A stretch of 64,000 nucleotides of DNA, taken from NCBI RefSeq assembly GCF_000973725.1, contig NZ_CP009621.1, positions 310,001 through 374,000 of the forward strand. The letters are read 5' to 3'. The notes beneath the pieces are model-generated. The model searched no databases, was not told where the DNA came from, and was given only the letters and a program-made list of their open reading frames with translations. Shown here piece by piece: positions 12,509-18,455 of the stretch. The stretch is from Pontibacter korlensis. GTDB lineage: Bacteria > Bacteroidota > Bacteroidia > Cytophagales > Hymenobacteraceae. A program made the position numbers and the translations under genes. Positions within the stretch are counted from its first letter, which is position 1, and every line of letters begins with the position of its first letter.

Positions 12509-12638
12509 GGTTGGAGTAGTAAAGCTGACTTTGACTGATGCTATTGCCCGCTCCACATACTTTCAGGCATATTGTGCTGTAGACTTCCTTGAAAGTCGGC
12601 CATTGTAAAGTTACAAAAACCTATAACTTTATAATGGA

Positions 12639-12880
12639 ATGAAAAAGACACGCTTCACAGAATCACAAATCATCAAGGCCCTCAAGGAGCACGAGAGCTC
12701 TGTCGGGAACTTGGGATCACCACCGCTGCCTTCTACAAGTGGCGCCAGCGCTACGCAGGACTGGAAGTCAAAGAACTAAAGCGGATGAAGGAATTGGAGG
12801 AGGAGAACGCTCGCCTCAAGAAGATGTTCGCCGAGCTCTCGCTGGTGCACCACGCCCTCAAGGACGCTGTGGAAAAAAAG
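12639..12880 (+). pseudogene. IS3-family OrfA (helix-turn-helix), internally deleted
   Basis: The frame opens MKKTRFTESQIIKALKEHES and then loses register at about 12700. The expected continuation (CRELGITTAAFYKWRQRY, then LKRMKELEEENARLKKMFAE) lies in another frame. The missing residues between KEHES and CRELG fit a deletion of some 20-30 bp that removed part of the first helix-turn-helix. The leucine-zipper part and the 3' A7G slippery run (12873-12880), used by these elements for programmed frameshifting into OrfB, remain. The IS110 element sits immediately after that run. Confidence 0.8.
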
Positions 12881-12936
12881 GTACTGTCTTGAAAGTCAAG
12901 AATTTTAGTTGCATTTTTCTTATCTGTTCCTTATCT

Positions 12937-14145
12937 TTAGTCTACCTGAAAGAGAGCTCCCGGGCCGACTGGTAGGGGAAGTTCATCTTGTGTAGCCCTG
13001 GCCTGAGCCGGGGCTATTTCTTTTTCCCCTGTCCCTGGCTCCGTTTCTTCTGTTATTGCGTCTTTGTCAGCTTCGCTGACACCTGAAAGAGAGGCTCCGG
13101 CCTCCTGGATGAGGTTGTTGTTTTCAGTTTCCTCCTGCTTTTGCCCATACTGCGGGTCAAAGGCCTGGTTCCTTTTCCAGAGGGTGTAGATGAGCACGAG
13201 CAGCTTCTTTTGCACGGCCACGTAAGCCACCATCTTCCTCTTTCCCTTGCCTGTCAGGCGCTCATACAGGGCCCGGCAGACGGGCACCTTGCGGCTCACG
13301 GCATTGAGTGCCGGCATATGCAGTATGCGCCTGATATGGCTATTGCCCTGCTTAGAGATCTTCTCTCGGCCCACCCTGTTGCCCGACTGGTTCTCCACCA
13401 CGTCATAGCCGGCGTAGCTGACCAGCTGCTTGTGGCTGGTGAACAGGGCAAAGCCGTTGGTCTCGGCCACCAACGTGGCCGCTGTCAGCAGGCCTACTCC
13501 CGGAATAGTAGTGATTTTCTGTATCCGCTCCTCCAGCTGCGCATCGGCCTGCAGGGTGGCCTTGATCTCCCGGGCGATCTGCTGCAGCTGCGCCTCGTAG
13601 AGCTGCAGGGTTTTGTTAAGCCTTCGCTGCGTGCCCTTGCCGGGCAGCATGGCGTGGGACTCGGCGTGGAGGCGATTGATAGCCTCTGTTCGCATCAGCT
13701 GCACCTGCTCATGCTCCCTGGTAAGCTTGCGCAACAGGTAGAGCTGGGGGCTCATCGGCTGCCAGGGCGCCAGGTGCCGTTCCGCGCCCATGTGGGCCAG
13801 GGCCTTGGCGTCGATCCGGTCGTTCTTGGACTTGTGGCCCAGGCTCTGGGCAAACTTCCTGGCCCGGTTGGGCAGCATCACTACTACCTGGCGACCCTGC
13901 TGGTGCAGCCGCCAGGCCAGGTTCTCGTAGTACACCCCGGTGGCCTCCATGATAAAGACGAGCTGCGCTTGCGGGTTTTCCCATTTGCCCGCCCAGCGGC
14001 TGAACTCAGCAAAGCCTGTGGGGGTGTTGGCAAATTGGCGTGTGGCTTTCACCACCACCCGGTGCTCTGCTGTGAGCACCGAGAAGCAGGCGTCGAACTT
14101 GTCCTTGGCGATGTCGGCGCTCACTGATTGCTTGAGGATCATCAT
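12937..14145 (-). CDS. IS110-family DEDD recombinase (Tnp), intact
   Basis: 402 residues. The N-terminal RuvC-like domain has the DEDD set: D11 (VSADIAKDKFDA), E67 (IMEATGVYYE), D109 and D112 (KNDRIDAKALA). A coiled-coil middle follows at about 135-215. The C-terminal Transposase_20 domain has TTIPGVGLLTAA, SYAGYDVVENQSG and ISKQGNSHIRR, where the serine used for strand exchange is expected. After about residue 335 there is an unusual acidic, Glu/Ala/Pro-rich tail of about 65 residues with no family counterpart. The start has two ATGs in a row; the first is given. The frame is uninterrupted, so the element may still be active. Confidence 0.93.
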   Translation of the reverse strand: MMILKQSVSADIAKDKFDACFSVLTAEHRVVVKATRQFANTPTGFAEFSRWAGKWENPQAQLVFIMEATGVYYENLAWRLHQQGRQVVVMLPNRARKFAQSLGHKSKNDRIDAKALAHMGAERHLAPWQPMSPQLYLLRKLTREHEQVQLMRTEAINRLHAESHAMLPGKGTQRRLNKTLQLYEAQLQQIAREIKATLQADAQLEERIQKITTIPGVGLLTAATLVAETNGFALFTSHKQLVSYAGYDVVENQSGNRVGREKISKQGNSHIRRILHMPALNAVSRKVPVCRALYERLTGKGKRKMVAYVAVQKKLLVLIYTLWKRNQAFDPQYGQKQEETENNNLIQEAGASLSGVSEADKDAITEETEPGTGEKEIAPAQARATQDELPLPVGPGALFQVD

Positions 14146-14169
14146 GGCCTAGAAATTAAAAGGTGTAAC

Positions 14170-14400
14170 AAAGACTTGAAACCCGTTGCCCTCCCCACTG
14201 CTTTTCTCATGGTCTTATGCCAGATCATCTCCTGTGACCAGATGTCCGTAAGTACTGTTCCGCCTCAAGGGAAGAAGCAGGCAGGGTGGAACTTCCTTTT
14301 TTTCTGTATCACCCAAGGTGTACTTGCTTTAGGGCATTCTTGCCATCCTGCCTGTGGTTCCTTTTGTTCTTACTTGTATTTTCCCTACTGGATTCAAAGA
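14170..14400 (-). ncRNA. Predicted bridge RNA of the IS110-family element
   Basis: This is the non-coding left end of the element, read on the transposase strand. A GGGUG/CACCC stem closes a loop (about 14287-14315) containing UACAG followed by a run of A and AAAG. UACAG equals the target bases left of the CT core. GAAAAAAAG is complementary to the target bases starting at the core. Further 3' (14252-14258) the RNA reads ACAGUAC, identical to the element's right end next to the core. Target loop first and donor loop second is the IS621 order. The exact RNA ends and the right donor guide are not resolved. Confidence 0.6.
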
Positions 14401-14406
14401 TATGAG

Positions 14407-15234
14407 CTGTAGGGCTCGGGCGAGAAGAAGGCGCTGGTGGGGTTATGGTAGAGGAGCACGGGGTGAGCGTGCGTCAGGCTTGCAGGGCAGCGGGTGTAGC
14501 CAGAAGCACCTATGAGTACAGACCAAAAGAGAAAGACGACAGCCTCATCGCCCAGGAGCTGCAACTGTTGGTGGAGAAGCACCCGGCCATCGGCTTCTGG
14601 CAATGCTTCCATAGGATCAGGAGGAAGGGCCACGGCTGGAATCACAAGCGGGTGTACAGGGTCTACAGCCAACTGAGATTAAACATCCGCAGGAGGCACA
14701 AAAAGCGGCTGCCGGCCTGCGTGAAGCAGGCTTTGTTCCAGCCGGAGAAGATCAACCAGGTCTGGTCGGTGGACTTCATGAGTGACAGCCTCTGGGACGG
14801 CCGTAAGTTCCGGCTCCTCAACATCGTCGATGACTATAACCGGGAGATCCTCTCCATGGAGGCGGATCTCTCGATCCCGGCTCTTCGGCTGATACGGGTG
14901 CTCCGGGTACCTCAAAGAGTTCAGAGGGCTGCCGGAGATGATCCGGGTGGACAACGGGCAGGAGTTCATCTCCCAAAAGCTCGAGGACTGGTGCAAGGAG
15001 AACAAGGTGCGGCTGGTGTTCATCCAACCCGGCAAGCCCATGCAGAACGCCCACATCGAGCGCTGCAACGGCAGCATCAGAAGGGAGCTGCTCAACGCCT
15101 ACGTGTTCAAAACGCTATCAGAGGTGCGCCAGAAGGCCGAGGAGTGGATGGAGGACTACAACCACCACCGGCCGCATCAGGCGCTGAACTTCAGAACGCC
15201 GGTGGAATTATTGGAGGAGCTCACAAACCACTAA
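14407..15234 (+). pseudogene. IS3-family OrfB (DDE transposase), frameshifted
   Basis: From MVEEHGVSVRQACRAAGVAR (14445) the frame reads a normal IS3 integrase core: WSVDFMSD with the first catalytic Asp, then NIVDDYNREIL. At about 14905 it shifts. The rest lies in another frame (VDNGQEFISQKLEDW with the second Asp, then HIERCNGSIRREL with the Glu), ending LEELTNH at 15234. Upstream, GEKKALVG is in yet another register relative to MVEEHG. All three catalytic residues survive in DNA but not in one frame, so the protein is dead. Confidence 0.85.
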
Positions 15235-16764: not shown

Positions 16765-16826
16765 ACTTTAAGTTTACCCCAACGGTTGGGCTAAAAAGCG
16801 TTTAAATGATTTTTAGCTTTTGTGCT

Positions 16827-18455
16827 TGTTGCACAACCTATTGAAGATAATCGTAAAAGCATATATTACCAAATCTTTGACAGGATGCAGGGCAGGAAAA
16901 CTTTCGAAGACGAGCGGGAGCTGTGCTTCTCGCTCTCGGTGCACGTGCCGGCGCACAACTTCTACCGGCGGCTCAAGGACAAGCTCGACCTGGAGTTTCT
17001 CTACGAGCTGACGGCTCCTTATTACGGCAGGTGCGGCCAGCACTCGATTGACCCGGTGGTCTTCTTCAAGCTCTGCCTGGTAGGGCACCTGGAGAACATC
17101 AGCTCTGACCGCCGCCTCATTGAGCACTGCAGCCTGCGCCTGGACCTGCTCTACTTCCTGGGTTACCAGCTTGACGAGCCCCTGCCCTGGCACTCGACCG
17201 TATCCCGCACCCGCCAGCTGCTACCCACCGAACTCTTCGAGGAGGTCTTCACCCGCGTGCTCGCCCTGTGCGCAGACGCCGGTATGGTGTCAGGCCATAC
17301 ACAGGTAGTGGATTCAGCCTTGATCAAAGCCAACGCCTCGATGGACTCGCTCGAGCTGAAGGTGCCCCGCCAGGAACTGGCTGATCATCTGGAGCAGGTC
17401 AGAGCCATCAGCCCTGCCGACCGCAAAGCCATGCGTGACAAGGCCAGCCAGCAGCAGCGCACCCTCTCCGCCAGCCGCGACGAGCTGCAGGAGATCCGGG
17501 CCCGTAACCGCAAGTGGGGCAAGGACCAGCACCCCGGAGCGAGCAACAAGGATAGCCGCTTCACCTCCAACAAGACGCACTACTCGCCGGTGGACCCCGA
17601 CTCCCGCATCGCGGTAAAGCCGGGAAAGGCCCGCAAGCTTTGCTATCTCCTGCAGCTGGCGGTGGACACCAGCCGCCATGTCATCACCCATGTGCATGCC
17701 GACCTGGCCGACAAAAAAGACAACCAGTGCCTGCCTCCCCTCTTACAGCAACTGCTCCCCAGGCTAGAGCACCTGGAGCTACACTGCAGCACCTTGCTGG
17801 CCGATACTGGCTACTCCTCAGGCGAGAACTACGCGCTCTTGGAGCGGCAGGCCGTCACGGCCTTCATCCCGCCCCACGGCCCTTACAAAGGTGGGCCGGA
17901 GGGCTTTACCTACCACCGGGAGGGTGATTACTGGCTGTGCCCCGAGGGCAGGAAGGTGACCTTCCGCAACGTGCTGGTGGAGAAGAAGAACAGCAATAAA
18001 AAGAGAACCTACTACACGACCAGAAAGGACTGCAGAAACTGCCCCTCAAAAGAGAGTTGCATCGGTCACTTGCATGTCAAAAAGATAGAGGTCACCTACT
18101 ACCGCGACGAGTACGAGCGCACCATTGCCCGCCTGAACAGCCGCTGGGGCCGGCGCATGAAACGCCTGCGGCAGGCCACCGTGGAGCCGGTGCTGGGCAC
18201 GCTGCTCGACTTCCTGGGCATGCGCCGGGTCAACACCCGGGGGCTGGAGCTGGCCCACAAGGGTATGCTGGTGGCCGCCGCAGCCTACAACCTGCAGAAG
18301 TTCTTGCGCTTCACCCCAAAAAGAAGCCAAACAGCCGTCATGGCCCTGCCCAGGCCTGACCTGGAAACGTTTTTCAAGATGGTTTTGGGGAGCCTGAAGA
18401 GAAGTGAAATCAGAAATGGTATAGAGACCACAAGTTACTGAAGAGTTGTGCAACA
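16827..18455 (+). mobile_element. IS1182-family insertion sequence
   Basis: 1629 bp with perfect 11-bp terminal inverted repeats (TGTTGCACAAC at 16827-16837 and GTTGTGCAACA at 18445-18455). The flanks show GCT on both sides (16824-16826 and 18456-18458), a possible 3-bp target duplication. A single transposase gene fills the element. It lies inside an attC-like palindrome. Confidence 0.88.
16885..18441 (+). CDS. IS1182-family transposase (DDE)
   Basis: I choose ATG 16885 (MQGRKTFEDERELCF), giving 518 residues; the longer frame would start outside the element. The N-terminal DUF772/InsH domain is at about 15-120 (IDPVVFFKLCLVGHLENISSD). A DDE_Tnp_1 core follows with QVVDSALIKANAS, the middle LADTGYSSGENYALLE and a cysteine-bearing block (RKDCRNCPSKESCIG). 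The C-terminal RQATVEPVLGTLLDFLGMRR carries the final glutamate and the HKGMLVAAAAYNLQKFL signature. The frame is intact and GC-rich compared with the cassettes around it. Confidence 0.93.
   Translation: MQGRKTFEDERELCFSLSVHVPAHNFYRRLKDKLDLEFLYELTAPYYGRCGQHSIDPVVFFKLCLVGHLENISSDRRLIEHCSLRLDLLYFLGYQLDEPLPWHSTVSRTRQLLPTELFEEVFTRVLALCADAGMVSGHTQVVDSALIKANASMDSLELKVPRQELADHLEQVRAISPADRKAMRDKASQQQRTLSASRDELQEIRARNRKWGKDQHPGASNKDSRFTSNKTHYSPVDPDSRIAVKPGKARKLCYLLQLAVDTSRHVITHVHADLADKKDNQCLPPLLQQLLPRLEHLELHCSTLLADTGYSSGENYALLERQAVTAFIPPHGPYKGGPEGFTYHREGDYWLCPEGRKVTFRNVLVEKKNSNKKRTYYTTRKDCRNCPSKESCIGHLHVKKIEVTYYRDEYERTIARLNSRWGRRMKRLRQATVEPVLGTLLDFLGMRRVNTRGLELAHKGMLVAAAAYNLQKFLRFTPKRSQTAVMALPRPDLETFFKMVLGSLKRSEIRNGIETTSY

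Follow-up and report, generated by a model that had tools for sequence, protein, structure and literature searches.

The IS110-group element at positions 12881-14404 of the window (the whole 64,000-nt stretch of the Pontibacter korlensis contig that we analyzed) very probably owes its position to a bridge RNA encoded in its own left end. The comparison of its predicted guides with the occupied site strongly suggests that this RNA directed the insertion into the A7G frameshift signal of an IS3-family element. As judged from sequence, the element belongs to the IS110 group and has an IS621-type bridge RNA. The evidence comprises the anatomy and ends of the element, the match of its guides to the site, a covariation that links guides to targets and a donor guide to the core, a repeated insertion at the same site, and the conservation of a promoter motif across the circle junction.

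The element is complete and measures 1524 bp without its core; it lies on the minus strand of the window, as do all of its parts, junctions, and target halves described below. Its ends, CATATCTTTG on the left and AAGACAGTAC on the right, are each bordered by CT, and they are found in an identical second copy. The left end CATATCTTTG and an AGTAC-type right end also bound about 40 relatives from Bacteroidota, and because these relatives share the same ends, no guesswork is needed to read their targets. The junctions of the window element, on the transposase strand, read CGAGCCCTACAG-CT-(CATATCTTTG...AAGACAGTAC)-CT-TTTTTTCCACAGC, with the CT core at the left-end junction (14405-14406), as read from ends and target, and its second copy at the right-end junction (12879-12880). 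This CT is the sole shared duplication, since it stands at both junctions and only once in empty IS3 sites. The left target half in IS3, with CGAGCCCTACAG preceding the core, occupies 14407-14418, the right half, with TTTTTTCCACAGC past the core, occupies 12866-12878, and the target reads GAGCCCTACAG-CT-TTTTTTCC. In the layout of the IS110 group, a long non-coding left end (259 nt, 14146-14404), which carries the predicted bridge-RNA gene, is combined with a short right end (56 nt, 12881-12936), which carries the TTG of a promoter that would exist only in the circle.

Between the ends lies the gene of a 402-aa recombinase (12937-14145), with the DEDD RuvC-like domain (PF01548, E=2e-24) and the serine Tnp domain (PF02371, E=1e-24) of the IS110 group. 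The closest solved relatives are ISCro4 (9t56, E=3e-40) and IS621 (8wt6, E=1e-34). The active site of IS621 consists of D11, E60, D102, D105, and S241 (PMC11208158), and the aligned equivalents in the window recombinase are D11, E67, D109, and D112 as the DEDD residues and S254 as the serine.

The host is an IS3-family element on the plus strand (12635-15234; HTH_21 and rve/rve_3 domains), interrupted at the A7G frameshift signal between orfA and orfB. Insert-free IS3 copies in the genomes of congeners, i.e., other Pontibacter species, have the site uninterrupted (e.g., AGGCCCTAAAGCTTTTTTTCAAC in locus L104). Together with the junctions, these empty sites place the element, between orfA and orfB, exactly within the A7G slippery run. 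At 12690-12715, orfA of the window IS3 is without about 19 bp that the other copy in this genome has, and the window IS3 looks decayed, the insertion aside. A further transposase gene nearby (16822-18441), whose product has DUF772 and DDE domains (PF05598, PF13751, PF01609), marks the region as IS-rich.

The genome, a single contig of 5.46 Mb, holds a second IS3 copy, which is 88% identical over the orfB part. Inside this diverged IS3, at the same base, sits a second copy of the element (L002) with 100% identity, and this is the sole other identical copy in the genome; the question of whether identical copies occupy unrelated targets, which bore on the initial annotation, is thus answered in its favor. 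When the genome was searched with the guide-derived pattern GCCCTANAGCTTTTTTT, allowing up to 2 mismatches of 16, no further IS3-like sites were found; the best three genome matches are weak, with 2 mismatches each, and lie outside IS3 sites. It could be argued that the second copy is the product of homologous recombination or gene conversion between insert-bearing IS3 copies, with no independent insertion, as both elements are completely identical and both lie within IS3. We consider this unlikely: identity, complete across the element, is lost 21 and 31 nt beyond the junctions, the orfB parts differ as given above, and a conversion tract would need to stop so near both junctions. Moreover, the main evidence for RNA-directed insertion, to which we now turn, is independent of the pair formed by the window element and L002.

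The predicted target loop is enclosed by an outer stem whose 5′ arm CAGGCAGGATGG (14343-14354) pairs in the predicted fold with the 3′ arm CCACCCTGCCTG (14278-14289). Within the internal loop, the left target guide (LTG) lies 5′ and the right target guide (RTG) 3′, both matching the target. The LTG GCCCUAAAGCA (14325-14335) agrees with the occupied site, GCCCTACAG-CT, at 9/11 positions; one mismatch is an A opposite the second core base T, and the one non-core mismatch (A for C) vanishes when the LTG is compared with the empty IS3 of L104, whose sequence GCCCTAAAGC equals LTG bases 1-10. The RTG GAAAAAAAG (14296-14304) is complementary to CTTTTTTTC at 8/8 positions, i.e., the core and six bases beyond it, although it consists mostly of an A-run and is a weak match if taken alone. 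The two guides are 20 nt apart, separated by the predicted hairpin GUACACCUUGGGUGAUAC (14306-14323). With respect to the core, which takes part in all four pairings in IS621, the RTG and the right donor guide (RDG) pair with both bases, while the LTG reads CA and the left donor guide (LDG) TT opposite CT.

The second loop would pair with the joined ends of the element itself. Its LDG, ACAGUAC (14252-14258), equals the right end, and its RDG, AUGAG (14206-14210), is complementary to the core and left end, CT-CAT. The RDG tracks the core and left-end bases in 35/35 elements, with comparable spacing from the LDG: it is [AG]TGAG where the core is CT, [AG]TGTG where the core is CA, and ACGAG in one element whose left end starts with CGT. 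The CA core is found in Spirosoma and related loci (L030, L035, L040, L041, L063, L074, L076, and L101), with TT or TA on the left side; these elements have a common left target, ACGGTCCGCCG, followed by GCGGC, which is palindromic and REP-like, and their donor guide is accordingly changed to ATGTG.

Much of this arrangement had been proposed in the initial annotation, which described an IS110 bridge RNA with a target loop followed by a donor loop, as in IS621, with a CT core and with guides fitting both the IS3 A7G site and the element's own ends. That description holds, as do the positions and matches given there for the RTG (14304-14296) and the LDG (14258-14252), and the RDG, for which no place had been found, can now be put at 14210-14206. 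Altogether, comparative support places three of the four guides, two as first read and one newly, and the LTG had to be replaced. It had been read as UACAG, adjoining the RTG with an overlap of one G. UACAG is indeed identical to the five bases left of the window core, but the segment consists of the 3′ arm of the hairpin plus two bases before the RTG run. Since a hairpin arm is no guide, the one-G overlap does not exist. The hairpin, with GATACTG, is kept in six relatives despite their other targets; these read TACTG at the position in question and match their left targets there at 0-2 of 5 bases, against 8-10 of 11 for the segment 5′ of the hairpin, and in P. pamirensis L124 the position reads GATATTG for a target of CTTGCGG. 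The chance that UACAG is the LTG after all appears negligible.

With GCCCUAAAGCA as the LTG, the fit between guides and targets can be evaluated statistically. In each left end, we looked for a stretch identical to the left target and core and, 8-45 nt further on, for the complement of the core and right target. For its own target, the window element scores 17/19 jointly, a value attained by only 2/2000 dinucleotide shuffles of its left end, and its guides score at best 14 against 39 dissimilar targets of other elements. For 37 non-redundant elements, the own-target scores sum to 538, compared with a mean of 430 (sd 7.0) when targets are permuted (z = 15.4; 0/20,000 permutations as high). Each part contributes by itself (z = 8.9 for the left and z = 4.2 for the right, in the same 37 elements), and wrong-strand controls give z = 2.0 and 0.0. 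At the level of single elements, the guides beat every wrong target in 22/41 cases, so that about half of the relatives are not separable individually.

Related elements with related targets would be expected to show some correlation even if the recombinase protein read the target and the RNA match were a by-product of common descent of element and target. This possibility is extremely improbable in light of four observations: both the strand and the order of the guide matches are those predicted for a bridge RNA, with the wrong-strand controls failing; near-identical scaffolds with different guides occupy different sites; the change of the core from CT to CA is accompanied by a change of the RDG; and IS621 provides a precedent (PMC11208160).

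The second of these observations is illustrated by two loci of P. pamirensis, L124 and L125. Their left-end stems agree with those of the window element nearly base for base, with TCCTTGCGGCA as LTG and GGGCATGAG as RTG. When their left flank, CCCTTGCGG-CT, is joined to the right flank of L025, CT-CATGCTC, an unbroken IS3 orfB frame, SRKGNCWDNAVAESFF, is obtained. From this uninterrupted frame, we infer that L124 and L025, on different contigs, represent the left and right halves of one kind of insertion. The L124/L025 guides match their own IS3 site at 16/19 positions, and swapping with the window element reduces the scores to 10 and 13. One genus offers an alignable, natural series of bridge RNAs in which the scaffold is constant and the guides vary with the target, which constitutes direct evolutionary evidence for reprogramming.

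The secondary structure is likewise kept among homologues, a point on which the initial annotation depended. In 34/35 relatives, the target guides are predicted to lie within a stem of 7 bp or more, with differing sequences, and the mean length of this stem is 13.6 bp compared with 7.5 bp in shuffled sequences. The individual folds show the same order throughout: outer stem, LTG, hairpin, RTG, outer stem. The left end of the window element taken alone has a folding energy no lower than that of shuffled sequences (z = 0.07). Unlike the folding of each relative individually, which is informative, an alignment-based consensus (RNAalifold on a MAFFT alignment of 11 left ends) yields only 6 pairs, 4 of them with compensatory changes, because guides and stems are too divergent for sequence alignment. 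Rfam returned no relevant family, either for the window at gathering cut-offs or for 14140-14420 at lax cut-offs.

Joining the ends with the core between them juxtaposes two motifs. The left end begins with a TATCTTTG-type -7 element within CATATCTTTG (14397-14404, its last bases reaching 14395), and across the joined ends TTG-N20-TATCTTTG is near-invariant. An exact TAnnTTTG occurs at the left end in 28/38 relatives, and 25 of those have TTG exactly 20 nt upstream. Promoters of sigma-ABfr have TAnnTTTG at -7 and TTTG near -33 (PMC7366714), and the circle of IS621 rebuilds a sigma-70 promoter (PMC11208160). The conserved TTG-N20-TAnnTTTG fits a candidate promoter of the Bacteroidota type that would be completed only in the circular form.

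The relatives extend the range of sites. In the genome of the window, relatives with 57-59% protein identity form two more groups at other targets. These groups (L003, L005, L006, and L007; L008-L012) lie at the two ends of a tnpB (OrfB_IS605) element: the tnpB 3′ end (motif KAVGQTVSA, where an omega RNA is expected) is occupied by one group and the region upstream of tnpB by the other, and the guides of both fit their sites. The same genome contains two near-identical truncated IS110 remnants, L014 (1100-1946) and L015 (1090-1940), whose right ends are followed by T-runs (CTTTTTTTAAG and CTTTTTGATAG); the outer element of L027, with an A-run in its loop, is a relative of both.

In P. pamirensis, elements of the second group are inserted at ACAGTA-CT, which in the left ends of other IS110 elements is the LDG segment; there are four left junctions in total. 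The insertions are those in L123 (1501), L124 (1501), L125 (1501), L027 (2742), and L024 and L025 (1-40), and the own left guide of these elements is GTGACAGTACT or GTAACAGTAAT. They are apparently aimed at the guide-RNA genes of their relatives. Recombination of the P. pamirensis C elements with a donor-like end was also considered and was rejected, as the core lies one base out of the donor register. If the targeting of donor guides is true, one RNA-guided element would break the guide RNA of another. Across all of these elements, the targets include, in IS3, the frameshift signal and the integrase motif KGNCWDNA, as well as both ends of a tnpB (IS605-type) element. Taken together, it is conceivable, albeit somewhat less than an even bet, that a Bacteroidota lineage of IS110 has specialized on sequences that are hallmarks of other mobile elements, including, in P. 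pamirensis, the donor-guide segments of other IS110 elements.

These observations can be arranged into a mechanism for the window element. Upon excision, the right end, CT, and left end would be joined in a circle, completing the Bacteroidota-type promoter, which would then transcribe the left end into the bridge RNA. The first loop (LTG GCCCUAAAGCA, hairpin, and RTG GAAAAAAAG) would pair, around the CT core, with both strands of the orfA/orfB frameshift site in IS3, the second (LDG ACAGUAC and RDG AUGAG) would pair with the circle's own junction, and the IS110 recombinase would join donor and target at CT. For transcription, RNA processing, formation of the RNA-protein complex, and catalysis, we infer the same course as in IS621 by homology. 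More generally, the results suggest that functional sites that are conserved in other transposable elements, and that occur in multiple copies, serve some IS110 lineages as landing pads. The elements described here also provide candidate recombinases with long right guides, the idea of a circle-junction promoter is extended to a Bacteroidota promoter type, and the reading of guides by eye is corrected in that the hairpin arm adjoining the RTG is no guide. In the literature searched, the coverage of which was incomplete, we found no description of an IS3 frameshift signal as an IS110 target.

Among known systems, the closest is IS621, whose bridge RNA, a transcript of about 177 nt, is bound by the recombinase and made from a promoter rebuilt across the circle junction (PMC11208160, PMC11208158). 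The window element resembles it in its long left end with the bridge RNA, the succession of target and donor loops, the logic of LTG, RTG, LDG, and RDG, the CT core, the junction-rebuilt promoter (here predicted from sequence), and the DEDD RuvC and serine Tnp domains. It differs in having, instead of a sigma-70 promoter, the sigma-ABfr-type TTG-N20-TAnnTTTG of a Bacteroidota host; an RTG of about 9 nt rather than 4 nt; a target in the IS3 frameshift signal, a conserved site of another IS, rather than in REP sequences; and a recombinase of 402 aa, with a longer C-terminal tail, rather than 328 aa. ISCro4 (9t56) is the best PDB sequence match to the recombinase over residues 9-331, a likeness that concerns the protein alone, whereas its host group and target are different. 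The seekRNA elements of the IS1111 group, which include IS4321/IS5075, are likewise RNA-guided DEDD recombinases (PMC11187229), but their RNA is in the right end and they have long subterminal inverted repeats, whereas the RNA of the window element is in the left end. Membership of the window element in the IS1111 group was rejected, since its 56-nt right end is without loop structure and its guides are in the left end. IS4321/IS5075 target the ends of Tn21-family transposons (cited in PMC11187229) and thereby offer a precedent for a mobile element that is aimed at another.
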